Assembly: GCF_050003625.1 (NCBI RefSeq)
Contig: NC_134400.1
Location: forward strand, 65,275,011 to 65,339,010
From: Haematobia irritans
Lineage: Eukaryota; Arthropoda; Insecta; Diptera; Muscidae
DNA length: 64,000 nucleotides
Direction: 5' to 3'
Every line of letters begins with the position of its first letter. The first letter of the stretch is position 1. A program made the position numbers and the translations under genes. Under the pieces are notes generated by a model that was given only the letters and a program-made list of their open reading frames with translations, made no database searches and had not been told where the DNA came from. Of the stretch, positions 17,231-28,609 are shown in pieces.

Positions 17231-20050
17231 TTATTCTTTATTCTTAAGTCGCTTTAAGCGTTCGGATCTCCTTAATTCTATTTCTATGGACGAGCTTCGT
17301 TTTCTCTTTTTCTCTTCCCTCTTATAGGTATTTACACGGGGTAAATATTTTACAACCTTTCCAAAAAATTTTTTAAGCTGGCTAATATGAGCTACCCTTC
17401 TTGCTCCGTTTATATTAATATAATATCTAACATTACTAATTCTAGACTCAATTTTTACACATATCCATTTACAATAATTATTTGAAACATTTCGATATAA
17501 CACAATTTCATTTGGTTTGTAACTTATAATTTTTGTTTCTTTTTCCACATCATTCGTCCTTCTGAACACTTTTTCTTTACTTATATATGGAGCTTTTGAT
17601 AGAGGGTTCAAAATATCTAGCATTGTTCTTGGATTATAATTAAAAATTAAACTTGCTGGTGGAACATTTGTTGTTGTAGACGGTGTTGTTCTATATTTTA
17701 ATAAAAAATTATTTATCTTAAATTCCCATAATTTATGTTTCGTTTTAGGATCCAACAAATACTTCTTTAATGAATGTTTTACAGTTTGAACTGCACGTTC
17801 GGCGGAACCGTTTGATTGTGGGTGGTAAGGAGGCGATTTCAAACATTCTATTCCACTTTTAGCACAAAATTCCTTAAACTCCTTTGAACTGAATGGAGGG
17901 CCATTGTCACTTACTATTTGGTTCGGCAAACCAAAAACTGAAAAAAATGACCTTAAGGTCTCGTTCACGGTACTAGCACACATTGACTTCAAAACATTCG
18001 CATCTATCCACTTGGAAAAAGTATCAACTATAACCAGTATAGTCACTTTTCCAATTTTACAAAAATCGATGTGTATTCGGTCAAAAGGATGGCGAGGAGT
18101 TGGCCATGATGTCAAAATCGGTTTATTCGAATTCTGATTTGTTGAGCATATCTGGCATTCTCGTACATATTCTTCGACATCATGATCAACTCCAGGCCAC
18201 CATACATACGTTCGCGCTAGAGATTTCATTCTAACCACGCCAATGTGGCCACTATGTAACAACTCAAGGACTTTGGTTCTCAAAGCACTCGGTATTACCA
18301 GTCTTTTCCCATAGAATAAGCATTCCTCCTCACTTGCTATAGACGTTCTCTTATTATAATAACATAATAAGTCGTTTGGAATGACCTTTGGCCATCCAAA
18401 CCGAATGTAGCCGTATACTTTCTTAAGATTGCAGTCTTTTCCCATTTCCTCTTTTACATCCTCGATCTTTACTGGTAGTTCATCTACTAAATTGAATATG
18501 TTTATGCTGTCAATATCATCTCCCGTCCCGCAACGTAGGGGCAATCGAGAAAGTGCATCTGCATGACTCATTTTCTCTCCCTTTTTGTACCGAATGGTAT
18601 AATCATATGATGAAAGAAATATTGCCCACCTTTGGAGCCTATTCGCTGCTAGGGAGGGCAAATGTTTTTTGTCGGAGAATATCTCTCTCAAAGGTTGGTG
18701 GTCGCTCTCAATAATGAAGGGTAACCCGTATATGTACTTGTGGAATTTGCGTACAGAGGAGACAATAGCAAGAGCCTCTCTGTGAAGTTGAGAGTAATTT
18801 TGTTCACTTGATTTTAATGAACTTGACATGAACATAACAGGTCTCTCCTGTCCATCGATTATGTGTGATAGCACGCCCCCCACACCGTATGAACTAGCAT
18901 CACACGATATTACAATTGGTTTAGAGGGATCGTAATGAGCCAAAATTCCGATTCCCGTTATCAACCTCTTGCTATTATCGAAAACCTTTTGATGTTCATT
19001 TGTCCAGGTCCAATGCACATTCTCTCTGGTCAATTGATGCAATAAAAATAATTCAGATGACAGATTTTGTACACAACGGTTGTAATAGTTTATCATGCCG
19101 AGATACGATTTCAGTTGACTCCTATTCGTCGGTGGTGGTGCTTCTACTACTGCCTTAATCTTCTGTTTTGATGGTGAAATCCCATCATAATTAATGGTAT
19201 ACCCCAAGTAATCAATTTCATCTCGGAAAAATTTACATTTATCAAAATTAATTTTTACGTTGTACTCAAGTAATTTTTCAAGAACGACACCCAAGTTCCG
19301 TTTACAGTCACTAAGGTCACTTCCACCCACCAGAATATCGTCGAAGTATACCTGGACTTTGTTCATCCCCTTCAATATCTCACATACAATTTTGGAAAAC
19401 ATTTGTGGAGCCGTCTTTAATCCATAAACAAGTCTCCTATATTGATAAAGCCCTCTATGCGTATTTATGGTCAACAATTCGCGAGAACGTTGTGAGACGT
19501 TAACCTGTAAGTAAGCTCCGGTCAAGTCTAATTTACAAAAGTACTTCCAGCCAGATAAACTAGATAATATCTCGTCTATCCGGGGAATTACGTAGTGTTC
19601 ATTCTCAACAAATTTATTTAGTGTCTTACGGCAGTCTACACATATCCTAATAGACCCGTCACCTTTGTTCACAACTACTATCGGACTAGCCCATCGACTT
19701 CTGACTACCGGAACGAGTACACTTTCTGAGCATAACCTTTCCAATTCTTTTTCCACCTTTTCCCGTAAACCAAAAGGTACCGAATAAGCCTTTGCAAATA
19801 TAGGATAGGCTTCGTCTTTAAGTGCAATTTCAGCAACATAGTTTTTTATCGTCGAGAAATGTTGTCTAGAAAACAACTTGGCATATTTTTTAAAACAAAA
19901 ATCATGGTATGGTTGGTTCAAATCTACATTTTGCACAGAATTTATCTTTAGAATATTTTCTCTCCAATCGGGAATAAGTTCATCCAACCAATTCCTTCCG
20001 ATTAATGGGTTAAACTTATGCGTTGAATTGAGAACTACTAGTTTTAACAT
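17231..20050 (-). CDS. Gypsy C pol: RT, RNase H, integrase
   Basis: A 939-codon uninterrupted reading. Its first residues (LIGRNWLDELIPDW) are the end of the protease, whose start is on the other side of the BEL insertion. RT shows RICVDCRKTLNKF (about residue 137), CKLDLTGAYLQV and the catalytic YFDDILVGG (about 235), a Phe variant of the YxDD box. RNase H has SCDASSYGVGGVL (about 385) and the HADALSRL end. Integrase has a full HHCC finger (about 595-635), Asp in IHIDFC (about 660), Asp in SDNGPPF (about 713) and Glu in NGSAERAVQ (about 750). The tail is very basic. All catalytic residues are present. Confidence 0.88.
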   Translation of the reverse strand: MLKLVVLNSTHKFNPLIGRNWLDELIPDWRENILKINSVQNVDLNQPYHDFCFKKYAKLFSRQHFSTIKNYVAEIALKDEAYPIFAKAYSVPFGLREKVEKELERLCSESVLVPVVRSRWASPIVVVNKGDGSIRICVDCRKTLNKFVENEHYVIPRIDEILSSLSGWKYFCKLDLTGAYLQVNVSQRSRELLTINTHRGLYQYRRLVYGLKTAPQMFSKIVCEILKGMNKVQVYFDDILVGGSDLSDCKRNLGVVLEKLLEYNVKINFDKCKFFRDEIDYLGYTINYDGISPSKQKIKAVVEAPPPTNRSQLKSYLGMINYYNRCVQNLSSELFLLHQLTRENVHWTWTNEHQKVFDNSKRLITGIGILAHYDPSKPIVISCDASSYGVGGVLSHIIDGQERPVMFMSSSLKSSEQNYSQLHREALAIVSSVRKFHKYIYGLPFIIESDHQPLREIFSDKKHLPSLAANRLQRWAIFLSSYDYTIRYKKGEKMSHADALSRLPLRCGTGDDIDSINIFNLVDELPVKIEDVKEEMGKDCNLKKVYGYIRFGWPKVIPNDLLCYYNKRTSIASEEECLFYGKRLVIPSALRTKVLELLHSGHIGVVRMKSLARTYVWWPGVDHDVEEYVRECQICSTNQNSNKPILTSWPTPRHPFDRIHIDFCKIGKVTILVIVDTFSKWIDANVLKSMCASTVNETLRSFFSVFGLPNQIVSDNGPPFSSKEFKEFCAKSGIECLKSPPYHPQSNGSAERAVQTVKHSLKKYLLDPKTKHKLWEFKINNFLLKYRTTPSTTTNVPPASLIFNYNPRTMLDILNPLSKAPYISKEKVFRRTNDVEKETKIISYKPNEIVLYRNVSNNYCKWICVKIESRISNVRYYININGARRVAHISQLKKFFGKVVKYLPRVNTYKREEKKRKRSSSIEIELRRSERLKRLKNKE

Positions 20051-20056
20051 TGCTAT

Positions 20057-20318
20057 TGTTCAGGTTGACACCCTGTTAGATTTAAGTTTCATGAATTGTA
20101 AAATACACCCCTGAATTATAACGATATCTGAAAAAATGACAAATGACTTATCGAAACTTTCGCTTACTTACTCTCTCGCTCAAATACCCGAAGGTACGAA
20201 TACCCCCGCCAATAAATTAAATTTTAATTTTTTTTTTTTTAAACCCGAAATTTAATTGTGTTTTTATTTATTTCCCCCCTCATTGATAAATTATTTTATT
20301 TAACTCCCCGCCTTTTCA
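20057..20318 (+). repeat. BEL 5' LTR
   Basis: A 262-bp LTR starting TGTTCAGGTTGACACC and ending CGCCTTTTCA. Its partner is at 27265-27527. Confidence 0.93.
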
Positions 20319-21263
20319 TTGGTCCTTCGAACCGGATAAAACCGCCCGAGATTTAAAATAAAATAATTTATCATTGAGCTTCTCTTTTTAGAGCCCGAAA
20401 ATCAATTGGTTATTTTGGTATTTTTTACCCCCTAAATTATTGGCTATCACCATTGTTTTCCCCTATAATATTCATCATACCAAGGTAAGGTTGTTGACAT
20501 TTATTAGTGGTGAAAATAAAGTAAACAAAAGTGCAAGAATATCAATAAAATAAAAGAAATAATAAATACAAAGTCACTCTTTCGTTTGCCTGTGTGTTGT
20601 TGTTGTATTTTCATTTGCCCATACGCTTTGGTTTCTAACAACCAAACGAAAACAACAGCTTGCATTATTACCCCCACTCCCGTCTCTCTTATCAAGTAGT
20701 GTGGTTGACTGTTATACGGACATACGTGTGTGTGTTGCATTCAATTGTACTACATGTTGCATTGCATGTTCGAGTGAGTTGTAACTGAACATTGCACAGT
20801 GGGCCCGATAGGAACAAAAGTTGTTCATTAAATAATTTTGAAAATTATTTTACATTGAAAAATAAATATTCAAATTAATTATTTTAATTGATTAATTATT
20901 GGAAAATATTGCAAGTAAAAGGCAATTGTGACTGTTTCGTATAATAAATAATAGTGATATCGAACTAACCCCGTAGTTTCACCCGTTTGAAATATTTTTG
21001 ATTCTTGCACATTGTATCGTATACTAATACGTAGTTTTGTTGCACAGTGGTGTTGGTAAGACCAAAATTGAAATATTTTTTAATTTACGAAAAATATTCA
21101 AAGGCATTAAATATTTGTTTATTGCCAATAATAAAAAAAATCATAACTTTTTTGAATTTTTTTGAACCCTATTTACGTTTGTTGTTGGAATTGAGTTCTG
21201 CAACCCCGTTTTCATACCAAATTAAACTTTTTACTCGAAATTTGAATTTTATTGAAAATAATA
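20319..21263 (+). promoter_or_regulatory. BEL leader: primer site and splice signals
   Basis: TTGGTCCTTCGAACCGG directly follows the LTR and has the TGG start of a tRNA-primed site. A consensus splice donor, CAAG then GTAAGG, lies at 20482-20490. Acceptor-like TTGCACAG occurs near 20790-20798 and, after a TACTAAT branch-point-like motif (about 21021), near 21040-21047. A further donor-like GGTAAGA follows at about 21053. No protein is apparent in the remaining A/T-rich leader. Confidence 0.55.
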
Positions 21264-24200
21264 ATGTCTGATATCAAGAATTTGATTAAAAGCGCAGACC
21301 GCTTAATTGATTTGGATATGTTCGTGACTTCGCTCAAGGAGGATGATCACACCGTCCACAGCCTCAACATTCATAAACAGGAAATTATTCGACTTTGGGA
21401 GAATTTCCGTGAAATTTATGAGGAATTGTGTGACACTATGGGTTCTAGTGATGATATTGCCAAAGTTAAGGCAAAATATATCGCAACATATAAGACGTAT
21501 GTGCGTGGACTAGCCCTTATTGAGTCTTTAATTGAAAAGCTCAATGCGAAGAAGAAGTCTTCTAGTTCATCCCTTCCAATTCACCTTCCCCCTTGTGATA
21601 CTGAGATTTTTTCTGGTGATTATAAATCTTGGCCTACGTTCAGAGACATGTTCTCTGCCCTATATAAAGATAATGAACATATCAGTAATATTCAGAAAAT
21701 GTATTATCTGATGCAAAAGACGGAAGGTGAAGCCCGCGATATTATCAAAACATGTCCGATTACTAATGAGGGTTTTCAGATGGCTTGGCAAAATTTAGTC
21801 GATCGTTATGAGAACAAAAGGGTTCTTGTAAACGCCCAACTCAAGATTTTATTCAATCTTGCACCCGTTTTCAAGGAATCTGGCCCCTCTATTAAGCAAT
21901 TGCAGCGTACTATGAGCGACTGCATAACTAATTTGTCTCTTTTGGGCATTGATACGAAGAATTGGGACGTTATATTTGTTTTCATATGTTCCACCCGTCT
22001 TCCTGAAGTTACCCTAGGACATTGGGAGCAATCTCAAGGGTCAAGTTCTGACCTACCTAAATGGGAAACAATGGATAAGTTTTTGACTGCTCGGTATCAG
22101 ACCCTTGAGTCCGTCTTTGACATTAAAGGCGCCCATAATATTTCGACGTCTTCTGGTCCGAGTTATGTAAGGAAACCTACTAGCCCAAAGAGAAAGTTAA
22201 TTACTAATAATAATGGTAATAGAAGTTTTAAGATCTTCTCTACTACTATACCATCTAATCCTCAGCAGAAATGTCCTCTTTGTTCCGAATCGCATCCCCT
22301 ACGATTATGCGAAGAATTTCTTCAAATGTCGGTTAACAATCGATTGGAAACAATCAAGCGACTCAAATGTTGCACGAATTGTCTGGCTTCGTCGCACACT
22401 TTTAGCAATTGTAAGAGCTCAAATATATGTTTCTTCTGCAAACAAAAACATCATTCTCACTTGCATAGAAGGGAATCCTCAGCACAAGTAAGTCGAGATT
22501 CGAGCTCACGACCTGGAATGTCCCGCGATATGGGAAATCCAGCCCGATCAGCTTCTGACGATGTTCCTTCTACATCAGAGGCTGTCCGTTCGTTGCAAAC
22601 TTTTGCAACTGCTATGGAAACATCACAGTTTTCTACAGTTCTTTTGGGAACTACTGTGGTAGATTTGTGTTGTCATGGCGTGAAGTGTTCTGCTAGAGCA
22701 TTGATAGATCCTGCCTCGCAAGCAACTTTTATTTCCCGAAAGTTGCCGATATTCCCAGTTACTTCTGCGAATATTGTTGGCCTAAACGGCACGATATCGG
22801 CGAAGTCTACTAATGTTTGTAGGATCTCTTTGTGCTCCCCTATTGACCCAACTTTTGAGTTGTCGACAGATGCGTATGTGGTTGACAAGTTAACTGGTCG
22901 TTTGCCTACTTATTCATTGTCACAGCTACTAGATGTAGATCTGCCCGAAGTCACGATGTGTGATCTAAAGTGTTCTCATATGGACCTTTTACTGGGTGGT
23001 GATATATATTCTCGGATAATGCATACTGATGTTCATAAGCACCCTAATGGTGATCTTATTGCCCAGAAATCAGTTTTCGGTTGGATCGTGACTGGCAAAG
23101 TCTCCCAAACCAAGCCCCTACAGTCGGTGGTATCATTTTACAGCCACATAGAGTTGAATGATCAACTTGCTAGGTTTTGGGAAATCGAAGATGTACCGAA
23201 AGTATGCACTATGTCAGAAGAGGATAGATGGTGTGAGGAATTATACCTACGAACGACTTATCGTAATGATAATGGTCGATATGTTGTTTCACTGCCTTTT
23301 AAGCGTGAATACCCCAAAGATTTGCAACTTGGTTTGTCCCGGAATAATGCCATTTCTCAATTTAAGCGAAATGAGTCGCGGTTAATGAGAAATCCCGAGC
23401 TGAAGATTCAGTATGACAGGGTACTACAAGAGTACGCTGATTTGGGACATATGACCATGGTTGATGAGAATAAGGTAAATTCTTCTAATACTGTGTATTA
23501 TTTACCCCATCACGCTGTTTTCAAGCCTGACAGCGCCACCACTAAATTACGTGTGGTGTTTAATGCTTCCAGTGTCACTTCTAATGGCGTTAGTCTTAAT
23601 AACGTATTGTATACTGGACCCGTTCTACAAGCAAATCTAATTGTTTTGATTCTCCGATGGAGATTATTTAGATTTGTCTTCAATGCCGACATCGAGAAGA
23701 TGTATAGGCAAATTCTGATTCATCCCGATCAGGCGTCATATCAGCGAATTGTTTTCCGTCTAGCCCCTGATGATATAATCCAAGATTTCGAATTGAACAC
23801 GGTCACATTTGGTGTGAACTGTGCCCCATATCTTACTATTCGGACCCTACTTAGACTTGCTGATGACGTCGAGGGTGACTTCCCGACTGCTGCGGAGATA
23901 ATACGTTCGCAGATGTATGTCGATGACATTTTGGCAGGAGCTCACAGTTTAGATGATGCCATGAAGAGCCGTGATGAACTTATGGAAGTTCTAGGTTCTG
24001 CTGGGTTTAATCTAAGAAAATGGACTTCTAATGTGCAGGGTCTTTTGTTAGATTTACCCCCCGAATATTTATTGGATAATGACTTTTTGAATATTTCCAA
24101 TGAAAGTACCGCCAAGACTCTGGGTTTACGTTGGAACGCTGGAAAAGATGTTTTCTTTTTCAAGTTGGTTTCAGCCCCTACTAGATCTTCCGTCACCAAA

Positions 24201-26486
24201 CGAGCTGTTTTGTCTGAGATAGCTAAATTGTTCGATCCAGCAGGTTGGCTGGCCCCTAAGATAATAGTTGCTAAGATTATAATGCAACAAATTTGGAAGG
24301 ACAAAACAGATTGGGACGAATGTTTGAAACCCATGACTCTGAATAGATGGTTTGCGTTTTTGGACGATTATAGTGAAATCGAACGGATAGAGATCCCCCG
24401 ATGGGTTGGTTTCAGCCCAGACCATGAAGTTCAGCTTCATGCATTTTGTGATGCTTCTGAGAAAGCATATGCGGCTTCACTATACGTCCGAATTAAAAAC
24501 GCCCCTGGTGATTATGTCACGCATCTGCTCGCAGCACGAACTAAGGTAGCGCCAATCAAGATTGAATCCTTGCCCCGTTTAGAGCTCTGCGGTGCAACTC
24601 TATTGGCTGATATGGTTGAGACTATTCGCTCCGAGCTGAGTCTCCCAGAAATTGAGACATTCTATTGGACTGATTCGACGATAGTTTTGTCGTGGCTTCA
24701 GAAGCCCCCGTGCCACTGGCCTACGTTTGTTGCGAATCGAGTAGCTAACATCTCTACGAAAATCGGTACTAGTAATTGGCATCATGTTCTGTCACACGAT
24801 AACCCCGCTGATATAGCCTCGAGAGGTTCTTCAGCGCGCGATCTTCTAACAAATAACCTTTGGTGGAAAGGTCCCGCTTGGTTATGTCGCCCTCGCTCCG
24901 AATGGCCAAAATCTACGTTTAGAATCATGACTAATCTTGAAACTAAACCGATTCAAGTCAATTTGAACCAATTATCCCCTCCTGAGGATATTTTGGCCCG
25001 TTTCTCTGATTTATCCAGAGCCCTAAGAGTTTTGTCATATGTATTCAGATTCTTTCATCGAATACACCCGAAGTTTAAATCGACACAGACGCATTCATCC
25101 TTCAACTTGGAACAGGGTGAGATCAACTTTGTGAAAGGTCGTCTTGTTGTCCTCTGCCAGCGTCGACATTTCCCTGAATATGTGGCGCTGGAGAACAATG
25201 CGCAGTTATCTCGAAAGAGCCCTCTGTTGAATTTCAATCCGTTTATAGATTCTGTTGGATTTATGCGGATGAATGGTAGACTTGCGCGTTCCCCTACTCT
25301 CACCTATGACGAGAGATTCCCCAAAATTCTACCCTATGATGCCCGGTTTACCAGATTGTACCTGGAGTACATTCACAAGAATACGGTGCATGGTGAAAAT
25401 GCATTAATGTTGAGATTAATGAGATTGGAATTTTGGGTACCCAGATTGAAGAATCTCGTCAGAACAATCATCCATAATTGCCGTACATGCGTATTGTTTC
25501 GGAAGAAAACTGTAGACCAAATTGTGGCCGCTCTTCCCCCTGAGAGAACTACGCTGTCTCGCCCGTTTACATGCACTGGAGTCGACTTTGCAGGCCCCTT
25601 TGATATAAAGACCTATATTGGTAGAGGTTGCCGTATCACTAAGGGATATGTGCTTGTGTTTGTCTGCTTTGCGACTAAGGCAATTCATTTGGAAGCGACA
25701 AATGACATGTCGACTGATTGTTTTATTGCTGCATTCACCCGATTTTTCTCCCGAAGAGGCTGCCCTTCTAAGATGTTTTCGGATAATGGGACATCTTTTG
25801 TAGGAGCTTCTAATGTTCTTGGTAGAGACCAAGCCCGATTTCTCGCTGAAGTGAAGCAAAATCTTATTTCGCTTAACGCCTTCCAATTATTAGAATGGAA
25901 ATTTATTCCCCCTGGTGCGCCACATATGGGTGGTCTTTGGGAGGCAGGAGTTAAGAGTTTCAAGACTCATCTTAAGAAAGTGTCTCACGCTCAGAAGTTT
26001 ATTTTTGAAGAGTTCAGCACAATGCTAGCTAGAATCGAGGCATGCCTTAATTCTAGGCCCCTTAGTCCTATGAGCGATAATCCAAACGATTTGGCTCCTT
26101 TGACCCCAGGACACTTCCTTATAGGTTCTGCCCTTCTCTCCCCACCGGAGCCCGACACGACAATTGAGTCGTTAAGTTATGTGAATAGATGGCAGAAACT
26201 TAAAGTCCTTTATCACTCTTTCGCCAAACGGTGGAAAGAGGAATATCTCGTTGAACTCCATAAGCGAAATAAGTGGAAATTTCCTCAAAGAGATTTTGCC
26301 GTTGGTGACCTGGTAGTAATCAGGAAAGATAATTTGCCTCCACCAGAGTGGAAAGTAGGTAGAATCGAAAAGATCTACTTAGGCCCCGACAACAAAGTGC
26401 GAGTTGTTGACATCAGGGTTGGAAATTGTACTATTACAAGGCCCGTTGTCAAACTCGTACTACTACCTGTTGATGGACAAAATTAA
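21264..26486 (+). CDS. BEL/Pao Gag-Pol polyprotein
   Basis: One uninterrupted reading; I prefer the ATG at 21264 (four codons after another ATG at 21252). Residue numbers below count from 21252. Order: DUF1759-type gag (about 100-290); three zinc knuckles (CPLCSESHPLRLC, CTNCLASSHTFSNC, CFFCKQKHHSHLH; 341-405); DUF1758 protease with ALIDPASQATFIS (about 483), where the usual DSG or DTG is DPA; RT with LRVVFNASS, FNADIEKMYRQI and YVDDILAG (about 889); RNase H with HAFCDASEKAYA, LPRLELCG and TDSTIVLSW (1063-1190); integrase with HHCC finger (1375-1411), Asp in GVDFAGPF, Asp in SDNGTSF and Glu in WEAGVKSF (1443-1563); C-terminal DUF5641 (from about 1643). Length is normal for BEL/Pao. Confidence 0.95.
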   Translation: MSDIKNLIKSADRLIDLDMFVTSLKEDDHTVHSLNIHKQEIIRLWENFREIYEELCDTMGSSDDIAKVKAKYIATYKTYVRGLALIESLIEKLNAKKKSSSSSLPIHLPPCDTEIFSGDYKSWPTFRDMFSALYKDNEHISNIQKMYYLMQKTEGEARDIIKTCPITNEGFQMAWQNLVDRYENKRVLVNAQLKILFNLAPVFKESGPSIKQLQRTMSDCITNLSLLGIDTKNWDVIFVFICSTRLPEVTLGHWEQSQGSSSDLPKWETMDKFLTARYQTLESVFDIKGAHNISTSSGPSYVRKPTSPKRKLITNNNGNRSFKIFSTTIPSNPQQKCPLCSESHPLRLCEEFLQMSVNNRLETIKRLKCCTNCLASSHTFSNCKSSNICFFCKQKHHSHLHRRESSAQVSRDSSSRPGMSRDMGNPARSASDDVPSTSEAVRSLQTFATAMETSQFSTVLLGTTVVDLCCHGVKCSARALIDPASQATFISRKLPIFPVTSANIVGLNGTISAKSTNVCRISLCSPIDPTFELSTDAYVVDKLTGRLPTYSLSQLLDVDLPEVTMCDLKCSHMDLLLGGDIYSRIMHTDVHKHPNGDLIAQKSVFGWIVTGKVSQTKPLQSVVSFYSHIELNDQLARFWEIEDVPKVCTMSEEDRWCEELYLRTTYRNDNGRYVVSLPFKREYPKDLQLGLSRNNAISQFKRNESRLMRNPELKIQYDRVLQEYADLGHMTMVDENKVNSSNTVYYLPHHAVFKPDSATTKLRVVFNASSVTSNGVSLNNVLYTGPVLQANLIVLILRWRLFRFVFNADIEKMYRQILIHPDQASYQRIVFRLAPDDIIQDFELNTVTFGVNCAPYLTIRTLLRLADDVEGDFPTAAEIIRSQMYVDDILAGAHSLDDAMKSRDELMEVLGSAGFNLRKWTSNVQGLLLDLPPEYLLDNDFLNISNESTAKTLGLRWNAGKDVFFFKLVSAPTRSSVTKRAVLSEIAKLFDPAGWLAPKIIVAKIIMQQIWKDKTDWDECLKPMTLNRWFAFLDDYSEIERIEIPRWVGFSPDHEVQLHAFCDASEKAYAASLYVRIKNAPGDYVTHLLAARTKVAPIKIESLPRLELCGATLLADMVETIRSELSLPEIETFYWTDSTIVLSWLQKPPCHWPTFVANRVANISTKIGTSNWHHVLSHDNPADIASRGSSARDLLTNNLWWKGPAWLCRPRSEWPKSTFRIMTNLETKPIQVNLNQLSPPEDILARFSDLSRALRVLSYVFRFFHRIHPKFKSTQTHSSFNLEQGEINFVKGRLVVLCQRRHFPEYVALENNAQLSRKSPLLNFNPFIDSVGFMRMNGRLARSPTLTYDERFPKILPYDARFTRLYLEYIHKNTVHGENALMLRLMRLEFWVPRLKNLVRTIIHNCRTCVLFRKKTVDQIVAALPPERTTLSRPFTCTGVDFAGPFDIKTYIGRGCRITKGYVLVFVCFATKAIHLEATNDMSTDCFIAAFTRFFSRRGCPSKMFSDNGTSFVGASNVLGRDQARFLAEVKQNLISLNAFQLLEWKFIPPGAPHMGGLWEAGVKSFKTHLKKVSHAQKFIFEEFSTMLARIEACLNSRPLSPMSDNPNDLAPLTPGHFLIGSALLSPPEPDTTIESLSYVNRWQKLKVLYHSFAKRWKEEYLVELHKRNKWKFPQRDFAVGDLVVIRKDNLPPPEWKVGRIEKIYLGPDNKVRVVDIRVGNCTITRPVVKLVLLPVDGQN

Positions 26487-26512
26487 TAACATTTTATTTT
26501 CTTTGTGTGTGT

Positions 26513-26540
26513 GCTGTCCCCATTTTTCGTATTTCCAGAC
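26513..26540 (+). promoter_or_regulatory. Candidate splice acceptor before BEL ORF3
   Basis: A pyrimidine-rich run ending ATTTCCAG lies 2 nt before the ATG of the third ORF. Together with the leader donor at 20484/20485 it would give a spliced subgenomic mRNA, as known for env of errantiviruses. The pairing is inference. Confidence 0.5.
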
Positions 26541-27143
26541 ATGTCTGGCCCATCACGTCGTCTCACAAATGAACGCCCTGAGGCAGATAAAGACGTCACC
26601 CAACGCACGAAGAAGGGTAGTGAGGTGCGGTGTAAGATATGTTTGCAGCCTCACGTACTTCGTCTCTGTCCTCGTTTTCGTGCGATGGATTCGGCAAAAC
26701 GTCGGAGAACAGTGATGAAGCTCGGCTTTTGCTTCAACTGCTTGGCGGAGTCCCATAAACGCTTGAATTGCAAGAGCCGTGAAAGATGTATGGAATGCTG
26801 TGGTGAGCACCATACGATGCTCCACCCGAGGTTTGTTGGGAAGCGTGAAAATCCCCCCAGTGCCGTCGCTAGCCGACCCCAGAATTCTAGGAAGGCCACG
26901 GAAAAAGCTAAACCTAGGAAGAAAACTCCACGACGAGACACCCACCAAAGGCGCTCGCTAGATGCTCGTAGCAACACCAATGCAGCCAATAGGATGTCGA
27001 CAAATCCGGAATCGCATCAACCTCGAGCCGCCGGCGGACGATGCACCTGTGGTCACAATCCGGTCAACACTTCCACTGTTAGCCCCAACACCAGCAGTGG
27101 ACCTGCTACGATTGTGATTCACGTCCATTCTGGGTCCCATTGA
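26541..27143 (+). CDS. BEL ORF3: zinc-knuckle protein in the env position
   Basis: A 200-codon reading beginning MSGPSRRLTN 55 nt after the pol stop, intact to its own stop. Residues about 33-92 hold three Cys/His clusters, CKICLQPHVLRLC, CFNCLAESHKRLNC and CMECCGEHHTMLH. Order and spacing are almost the same as the gag knuckles inside the upstream polyprotein, but the sequence differs, so it looks like an old internal duplication. The remainder is strongly basic and Ser/Pro/Thr-rich (KPRKKTPRRDTHQRR). No signal peptide or membrane segment, so it is not an envelope. A nucleic-acid-binding accessory or extra nucleocapsid role is inferred. The ATG follows a splice acceptor. Confidence 0.75.
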   Translation: MSGPSRRLTNERPEADKDVTQRTKKGSEVRCKICLQPHVLRLCPRFRAMDSAKRRRTVMKLGFCFNCLAESHKRLNCKSRERCMECCGEHHTMLHPRFVGKRENPPSAVASRPQNSRKATEKAKPRKKTPRRDTHQRRSLDARSNTNAANRMSTNPESHQPRAAGGRCTCGHNPVNTSTVSPNTSSGPATIVIHVHSGSH

Positions 27144-27249
27144 ATTTATTTATTTATGTTTTTTGTATTTGTATGTCCATTGAATTGTAAATTGAATTCT
27201 CGTTTTTTTATTGTCCCCTAGCTCCTGCTTGCCCCTATGTTGCATTCCT

Positions 27250-27264
27250 GCAAGGGGGGCGGGA
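27250..27264 (+). other. BEL polypurine tract
   Basis: GCAAGGGGGGCGGGA directly before the 3' LTR, a near-ideal plus-strand primer. Confidence 0.8.
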
Positions 27265-27527
27265 TGTTCAGGTTGACACCCTGTTAGATTTAAGTTTCAT
27301 GAATTGTAAAATACACCCCTGAATTATAACGATATCTGAAAAAATGACAAATGACTTATCGAAACTTTCGCTTACTTACTCTCTCGCTCAAATACCCGAA
27401 GGTACGAATACCCCCGCCAATAAATTAAATTTTAATTTATTTTTTTTTAAAACCCGAAATTTAATTGTGTTTTTATTTATTTCCCCCCTCATTGATAAAT
27501 TATTTTATTTAACTCCCCGCCTTTTCA
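27265..27527 (+). repeat. BEL 3' LTR
   Basis: A 263-bp LTR, nearly identical to 20057-20318; the only differences I see are in the T/A homopolymer run. It is followed by the GCTAT duplication. Confidence 0.93.
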
Positions 27528-27532
27528 GCTAT

Positions 27533-28609
27533 TTTTCCCTTATACTCCACATTAACAACAACATAACCAACAACGTCAACTTTATCACCAGTAACAACTT
27601 TTAAATTTTCCTCTTGTCTCTGCAATCTAATATTATTTAAATATGTATCATAATATGTAATATGACGTATTGAGACACACGCCCCCGTGTCTACCTCCAT
27701 GTCTATAATGTTATCTTCAATTTTAACAGAAACAAATAATGAACTTGTATAATTACATGAAAACAAATTATTTAAATAATCACATTCCTCTGAACAATCG
27801 CTACTATAATCACATTTTTTAACATACTTGCTTTCGCGTCTTGTATTTACCAAGTTCTTGGGACGGTTTTCTTCTTCTTCGTCTTTTTGTTTTGTCCAGC
27901 AATACTTCTCCATATGTCCGCGTTTTTTGCAGTAGAAACAAACGATGGTTGATTTTCTCTGGATTTTTTCTTGCCTTTTCTTTCTACCATAAGACTCTCT
28001 ATTATCATCACGTGAGCGCGATATGTGATTAACGGTTGAAGGGCCTCTCATTAATTCCATATCATTATTTGACAACTCCATTGATAACGCCATTTGACAA
28101 ACTTTTTCGAATGACTCAATTGTAGCTTCATTGAGAATTCTGGTCTGGATTTTGTCATTTGATAATCCACATACAAACTTTATAATTAAGGCCTTCTCAA
28201 GGAATGACTCGAAATGGCATTCTTGCGATAATTGTTTCAATTCTACAATGTAGTCGGCTATGGTTTCTCCCACATGTTGATCCCGCTTAAAAAACTTGAA
28301 GCACTCAACTATTATGTTCTTTTTGGGTTTAAAGTGATTCTTCAGTATTTCCACAATTTGTTGGTATTCGAAGTGGCTCTCATTCTTGGGTGCGAGCAGG
28401 GAACACATGGTTTTATACAACTCAGCACCTCCAAGACTTATTAAAAGAGACGTTTTGTCATTGTCTTTTACTATTTTATTTAACGACAGGAGGTGATTTA
28501 ATCGATTGATGTAAAGGGAAAAATCTTCCCTCACGTTATAAACCTCCATTGTTCCAATTAAAGCAACTGGTCCCTCAGCCATTTTTGTTTTGTTTTCAAA
28601 ATTGTTCAA
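27533..28609 (-). CDS. Gypsy C gag and protease N-terminus
   Basis: The reading starts at 28609 (MNNFEN) or, more likely, nine codons later at MAEGPVAL (28582). It contains a capsid region (YINRLNHLLSLN, FFKRDQHVGETIADYIVELKQL, FVCGLSNDKIQTRIL), a CCHC knuckle CFYCKKRGHMEKYC (about residues 222-235) and the protease active site MEVDTGACVS (about 307). The BEL insertion at 27527/27528 cuts it within the protease; the rest of pol resumes at 20051 on the other side. No other lesion is visible. Confidence 0.85.

Follow-up and report, generated by a model that had tools for sequence, protein, structure and literature searches.

Within a 64,000-nucleotide (nt) stretch of the Haematobia irritans genome (G000:C4:65275011-65339010, hereafter the window), a BEL/Pao long terminal repeat (LTR) element spanning positions 20057-27527 carries, downstream of its gag-pol frame, a third open reading frame (ORF3), whose predicted product resembles the nucleocapsid part of Gag. 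ORF3 is almost certainly a conserved gene, and the signals that surround it make its expression from a spliced message probable. The best overall explanation, to which we give about an even chance, is that ORF3 is a selected, spliced, trans-acting RNA-binding accessory gene. A role in the export or packaging of the unspliced RNA in trans, proposed by analogy with known systems, is tentative.

The ORF3 protein and its likeness to gag

As reported in the first-pass annotation (made from the letters of the window alone), an intact frame of 200 codons plus stop follows pol, and it begins 54 nt past the gag-pol stop (26486). Its three Cys/His clusters, likened in that annotation to those of gag, turned out to have exactly the gag spacing (0,3,7,12,33,36,41,46,52,55,59,60,64), and the two proteins are 42% identical across 88 amino acids (aa; E 3e-14). 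The tail is strongly basic, again as annotated, with 18 Lys/Arg vs 5 Asp/Glu in the last 102 residues. One annotated H. irritans protein is 99% identical to ORF3, and relatives retain the protein down to about 33% identity. Taken together with a ratio of nonsynonymous to synonymous divergence (dN/dS) far below 1 between the two alleles described below, these comparisons argue that the conservation of ORF3 exceeds chance.

Two alleles of ORF3 on one chassis

The H. irritans assembly (1.17 Gb) was searched with ORF3, the best 150 of 3,207 candidates were scored, and 151 matches were reported. Among the matches listed, 13 rows including the window (allele A) are 92-100% identical over all 200 residues, one with an in-frame deletion and none with a stop, and 10 rows (allele B) show 69-73% protein identity over the same length, two of them with stops. 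About 35 further rows are partial (54-98% identity, manual count), and many of them contain stops or split frames, so some copies of ORF3 are truncated or dead. Both alleles are carried on one chassis, for which at least 29 copies at 89% identity or more were found (30 rows, two of which are pieces of one broken copy), and an ORF3 match, in some cases a fragment, lies at most 1.6 kb downstream in 28 of the 29 listed chassis copies.

Comparison of the window with eight B rows (L019-L024, L026, and L027) gave 95-100% identity per 100-base bin over the 1.2 kb of pol before ORF3 (B row L025 lacks most of this stretch) and 91-100% in the last 100 bases before the gene. The bins of ORF3 itself are at 62-85%, and the 100 bases after it at 99-100%; LTR bins are 85-99% identical to the window in the B rows and 82-100% in the A copies. 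In the A copy L017, the sequence past the end of ORF3 is unrelated.

For pol, synonymous divergence (dS) between A and B is 0.029-0.038 (five rows, i.e., L019, L020, L021, L023, and L026; L022 and L027, whose pol rows are not in frame, were excluded), and among A copies it is 0.029-0.064, whereas for ORF3 (five rows, 197 codons) A-B dS is 0.95-1.0 and dN 0.17-0.18, i.e., dN/dS is about 0.18 (Fisher p 6e-19 on the counts of one A-B pair). An ORF3 dS of about 1 next to a pol dS of about 0.03, together with this low dN/dS, indicates that the body of the gene was exchanged by recombination and has been under purifying selection. A and B are identical over roughly 25 bases at either end of ORF3, with the exchanged body between them, and the A-type tract in front of the B copy L027 indicates that the exchange junctions vary. 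The first-pass annotation had set routine disruption and a dN/dS near 1 against its reading of ORF3 as a functional gene; neither was found in the full-length rows (13/13 A and 8/10 B rows without stop), though many of the partial ones are broken.

Six B pieces, of which five span about 2.95 kb of LTR, leader, and gag and L069 spans 2.1 kb, match the window at 96.5-98% DNA identity; for three A pieces the figure is 98.5-98.7%. Gag bins are at 96-100%, with no island of divergence resembling that of ORF3, which is the strongest on the chassis. Among the copies read, neither A nor B ORF3 was seen on a clearly different chassis.

Two further copies were also recorded. L028 (G000:C1:99323500-99326700) has a B-like ORF3 on a chassis more diverged throughout (pol DNA 88-97% in bins) and is perhaps an older B element. 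The ORF3 copy at G000:C4:65973873-65974426, 88% identical to A in its second part and 76% in its first, is perhaps an A/B mosaic.

Candidate splice signals around ORF3

A donor in the leader and an acceptor directly before the ORF3 ATG had been proposed from the window sequence, and both are present (Table 1). Scored with approximate, untrained splice-site frequencies, the donor at 20484/20485 ranks first among the GT sites of the element, and the candidate acceptor at 26538/26539 (ATTTCCAG/AC-ATG) ties for first among its 379 AG sites. The donor is identical in all eight other copies whose aligned piece reaches it, and TTTCCAGAC-ATG is found in 23 of 23 distinct places including the window (28 rows, five of which repeat the same place).

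In the predicted spliced message, the ORF3 ATG would come first after three LTR ATGs (20091, 20136, and 20143), which may precede the transcript start; the unspliced leader carries two short upstream frames ahead of gag. For the relative P0013 (45% identical), the translation preceding the ATG (FLFCVCFVLYLQ) is compatible with a pyrimidine-rich stretch that terminates in CAG or CAA. The annotated isoform P0005 has residues ahead of the ATG (...V-D-M), consistent with splicing at the acceptor at 26538/26539; its upstream peptide MHGVHR had no match in any locus read.

ORF3-like frames after pol in other BEL families

Thirty further nucleocapsid-like open frames (L029-L058) were hand-picked from the ORF3 genome matches to span the frame lengths. 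With the exceptions of L036 and L044, all of them lie no more than about 200 nt downstream of the end of a BEL pol in the same orientation. Further BEL copies with an ORF after pol, which the first-pass annotation had suggested looking for, are therefore present both on the window chassis and in these 28 of 30 frames. By reading, 17 frames consist of knuckles and a basic tail, many with an end like ILSEAIKSLATVLCAS (class i; L049 continues into other sequence), and 12 run on into a protease-like domain (class ii). L036 falls outside both classes; pol does not precede it, and it is perhaps a piece of gag. It was kept in the tree and in the phase count described below.

The catalytic position of the protease-like domain is Asp in 12/12 gag-pol rows and Ser or Asn in 7/9 class ii rows. 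This alignment took 12 of 18 gag pieces (L063, L065, L086, L089, L090, and L092 were left out) and nine of 12 class ii frames (the near-copies L031, L033, and L037 were left out). The two class ii rows that retain the catalytic Asp, L045 and L048, have an in-frame ATG as well and possibly encode an active second protease. Where dS could be estimated in pairs from other families, w (dN/dS) is 0.04-0.14 for the knuckles; class i tails evolve faster than the knuckles (w 0.25-0.43), and for class ii tails w is 0.12-0.13 in four diverged pairs of one group, which are rough values because dS there is near 2 and above about 1.5 it approaches saturation. As a separate observation, several BEL pol relatives at 58-61% identity have open frames of 2128-2136 aa, vs about 1784 in others, a length that suggests extra in-frame domains.

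In 22 of the 30 frames, no in-frame ATG precedes the knuckle match. Their best in-frame acceptor lies in one common phase in all 22 cases, vs 4/8 among the frames with an ATG; since the frames are related by descent, the shared phase reflects conservation and does not amount to 22 independent tests. Leaders were read for four families (L042, L039, L040, and L029). In two of the three families with verified LTRs, L042 (275 bp, 100%) and L039 (at least 511 bp, 100%), an ATG frame of 10 or 6 codons in the matching phase precedes the top-scoring leader donor. A matching-phase donor exists in L040 (LTR of 569 bp, 100%), and in L029 the best leader donor has a matching ATG frame. These arrangements are suggestive of a short leader exon that would supply the start codon in the ATG-less families.

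Ancestry and relatives of ORF3

The view of ORF3 as a duplicate of the gag knuckles of its own element, put forward in the first-pass annotation together with a proposal to compare the two in a phylogeny, did not hold. The knuckle tree comprised 53 different sequences (57 collected; 65 columns), i.e., 40 ORF3 and 13 gag rows; the relatives P0005 and P0017 were omitted, as their sequences departed from the knuckle pattern. Ten of the gag rows cluster together (98/96) to the exclusion of every ORF3 row, and the remaining ones (window gag, L059, and L060) are long branches among the ORF3 rows. A single ORF3 clade was neither rejected (approximately unbiased test, p 0.44) nor demonstrated. Nearest to the window ORF3 is allele B, followed by ORF3 relatives from other sources, and ORF3 pairs with its own gag in none of the eight other elements for which both pieces were read (L029, L030, L039, L040, L041, L042, L050, and L054), whose gag rows all belong to the ten-row gag cluster. 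As the ORF3 and own-gag knuckles are unpaired in the tree, ORF3 did not arise by recent copying of its own gag, and by these comparisons it appears to be an old accessory gene.

The protein searches returned 15 proteins at E <= 1, three of them from H. irritans. Outside the knuckles, the other 12 have RRL near the start (six proteins) or RKF (three more), and seven of them end in TIV[IF]N[VL] or FVFHFH; ORF3 itself has RRL and TIVIHV. P0016 was considered as a gag fragment, a candidate dropped on its C-terminus, which reads like a class i ORF3. No relative was found in viral contigs (queries: ORF3, its alignment, and a pol piece) or in genome contigs (query: the alignment).

Proposed role and alternative explanations

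We propose that the nucleocapsid segment of gag, probably together with the protease, was copied to a place downstream of pol in a set of BEL/Pao elements; the protease part of this origin is suggested by those ORF3 frames that run into a BEL protease-like domain. A spliced subgenomic mRNA would join the 5' leader to ORF3, removing gag-pol, and a short leader exon would provide the start codon for those ORF3 frames that lack it. The product would be a small, basic, triple-zinc-knuckle protein that binds the element's own unspliced RNA in trans and aids its nuclear exit or packaging, in the manner of the spliced accessory proteins Rev and CERV. As the intron would cover gag-pol, the full-length RNA would have to exit the nucleus in unspliced form, a difficulty that Cer1 overcomes by means of CERV. 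We infer the splicing, the zinc binding, the RNA binding, and the role from sequence features. The fuller picture, i.e., a BEL/Pao lineage with an undescribed third gene, in which a copied nucleocapsid-protease segment is spliced out as a trans-acting RNA-handling protein, an inactivated protease domain is selected as a regulatory subunit in sister families, and the gene behaves as an exchangeable cassette (A/B on one chassis), is somewhat less secure than an even bet.

The separately expressed, nucleic-acid-binding accessory protein envisaged in the first-pass annotation thus gains from the signature of selection (dN/dS about 0.18) and from the conservation of both sites (donor 8/8, acceptor 23/23); its further suggestion, that the protein competes with Gag, gained nothing from the data, in which two very different ORF3 alleles accompany one near-identical leader and gag. 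That ORF3 has been exchanged while gag stayed almost constant speaks against a protein adapted to a particular gag.

Several results weigh against the proposal. The predicted structure of ORF3 is poor (mean predicted local distance difference test score, pLDDT, of 53). Matches of the class ii domain to protease families of Pfam are under the curated cut-offs, and there are none for L029, L038, L050, and L058. In closely related class ii pairs, the tail is not evidently constrained: w is 0.58 for L032/L037, and no synonymous change separates the tails of L029 and L031. With regard to the leader exon, 99 of 560 leader GT sites have a matching ATG frame, a chance level at which the observed matches are statistically weak. 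Furthermore, two wrong-phase donors outscore the matching one in L040, the donor of L029 may fall outside the element because its LTR was not located, the acceptor of L042 is weak (2.7), and class ii acceptor scores are low (2.3-6.0). Six more leader pieces, taken at extrapolated places, were uninformative, as they matched neither their own 3' LTR nor the reference leader, with the sole exception of a diverged 73% stretch in L099.

Among the alternatives, ORF3 might be an extra nucleocapsid that enters particles with Gag and helps annealing and reverse transcription, with no part in nuclear export. The identical knuckle spacing, the knuckles being the most constrained part in the measured pairs, and the retention of the knuckle triplet in the ORF3 of other families all suit such a protein; however, no capsid-binding part was recognised by reading ORF3, and the basic tail and the TIVIHV-like C-terminal end are unlike gag. 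We regard it as unlikely, though worth serious consideration.

Less probable still is that ORF3 restricts the copy number of its own element as Ty1 p22 does, competing with Gag for RNA or, in the protease-bearing families, poisoning the protease dimer. A Gag-derived product of a separate message is what the available text of PMC4599808 and PMC8458377 describes for Ty1, and the catalytic Asp is gone in most protease-like rows (7/9) though the tail w is 0.12-0.13 in four diverged pairs (0.58 in L032/L037). Nevertheless, a self-limiting gene would be costly for a selfish element, yet 28/29 listed chassis copies have an ORF3 match; the A and B proteins differ by 30% while leader and gag DNA are 96.5-98% identical. 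The window family, moreover, is without the protease part.

A counter-defence protein that binds small or double-stranded RNA (against Piwi-interacting RNA, piRNA, or RNA interference, RNAi), with the A/B exchange as the trace of an arms race, is improbable to much the same degree: the low gene-wide dN/dS, with no sign of positive selection at the gene level, does not favour it, even though the protein is basic and probably RNA-binding and no other part of the chassis forms so strong an island of divergence as ORF3. Finally, that ORF3 is a passive leftover or a carried host gene, functionless for the element, is barely credible given a dN/dS of about 0.18 at dS of about 1, relatives in other sources, and the same post-pol place in many families, notwithstanding that intactness in one young insertion tells little and that about 35 rows are partial or broken.

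Structure and classification of the element

The window element is a young insertion with nearly identical LTRs. Its domains follow in one frame in the Pfam order DUF1759, reverse transcriptase (RT), Peptidase_A17, integrase H2C2, and DUF5641 (the RT match, at 24.1 bits, is under the curated cut-off of 29.6), and this Pao-type Pol order, the LTRs, and the target duplication place it in BEL/Pao (Belpaoviridae). No Pfam envelope family was matched in the element at E up to 1, and by this comparison ORF3 is not an env-like third gene. The putative primer-binding site appears to resemble the 3' end of tRNA-Tyr. The profile of the International Committee on Taxonomy of Viruses gives tRNA-Arg or tRNA-Gly as the primer of Belpaoviridae (PMC8742986).

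Table 1. Features of the BEL/Pao element, in window coordinates
Feature	Position	Strand	Remarks
5' target-site duplication GCTAT	20052..20056		partner 27528-27532; read beside both LTR ends
5' LTR (TG...CA)	20057..20318	+	261/263 identical to 3' LTR
Putative primer-binding site TGGTCCTTCGAACCGGA	20320..20336	+	immediately 3' of 5' LTR
Candidate splice donor CCAAG/GTAAGG	20484..20485	+	in leader; top donor of the element by approximate matrix
gag-pol, single intact frame	21264..26486	+	1740 codons + stop; gag knuckles from residue 337
Pyrimidine-rich tract ending in candidate acceptor TTTCCAG	26487..26538	+	ties for top acceptor
ORF3	26541..27143	+	nucleocapsid-like triple knuckle, residues 31-95; basic tail; ends RRLTxER and TIVIHV common to relatives
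Polypurine tract AAGGGGGGCGGGA	27252..27264	+	direct reading ahead of 3' LTR
3' LTR	27265..27527	+	261/263 match with 5' LTR

By reading of the frames, the BEL insertion lies within another LTR element on the minus strand (17231-20050 and 27509-28609), apparently of the Ty3/gypsy type, with its pol frame on one side of the insertion and its gag frame on the other.

Comparison with known systems and significance

Complex retroviruses are characterised by accessory proteins translated from spliced mRNA; to our knowledge, such proteins have been described for few LTR retrotransposons. Cer1, unlike the window element, is of the Ty3/gypsy type. In Caenorhabditis elegans, its accessory protein CERV is needed for export of the unspliced genomic RNA, and according to the available text of the same source it is translated from a spliced mRNA and has sequence partly in common with Gag (PMC10309623), as predicted for ORF3. 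CERV differs, as that text describes it, in that the peptides in common with Gag lie in its N-terminal half and not in knuckles, in having five exons, and in having no RNA-binding motif by database, with a possible C4 zinc finger.

The triple-knuckle spacing of ORF3 is that of BEL/Pao gag nucleocapsids, and its third cluster is also of the CCHHH type, proposed as Pao-like in the accessible part of PMC4580426; in contrast to gag, it stands in a separate post-pol frame, has conserved ends of its own, and groups with other post-pol ORFs. The env-like genes of some BEL/Pao elements (PMC8742986) are likewise third genes after pol, but ORF3 is nucleocapsid-like and basic and matches no Pfam envelope family. 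Ty1 p22/p18, in what is available of PMC4599808 and PMC8458377, is similarly a Gag-derived product of a separate message; ORF3, unlike p22, is not identical to part of its own Gag and is a separate, diverged gene. Achilles, a BEL/Pao element of the olive fly, also has a three-cluster gag, but the accessible part of PMC4580426 describes one gag-pol ORF and no envelope ORF in the analysed copy. A literature search, which included PMC8742986, PMC3118150, PMC4580426, and PMC12440569 (Troyka) but did not extend to Repbase and most subscription journals, where such an ORF may have been described, gave no BEL/Pao element in which nucleocapsid or protease is copied after pol. Of the major LTR families, BEL/Pao has probably received the least study, according to PMC554778.

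If the proposal is true, the conserved BEL/Pao accessory gene would be an independent case of such a protein, built from the element's own nucleocapsid. The A/B exchange offers a natural experiment, in which gag and pol are near-identical and ORF3 comes in two versions, and the lost catalytic Asp in the sister families would make it possible to test the conversion of a protease into a non-enzymatic partner.
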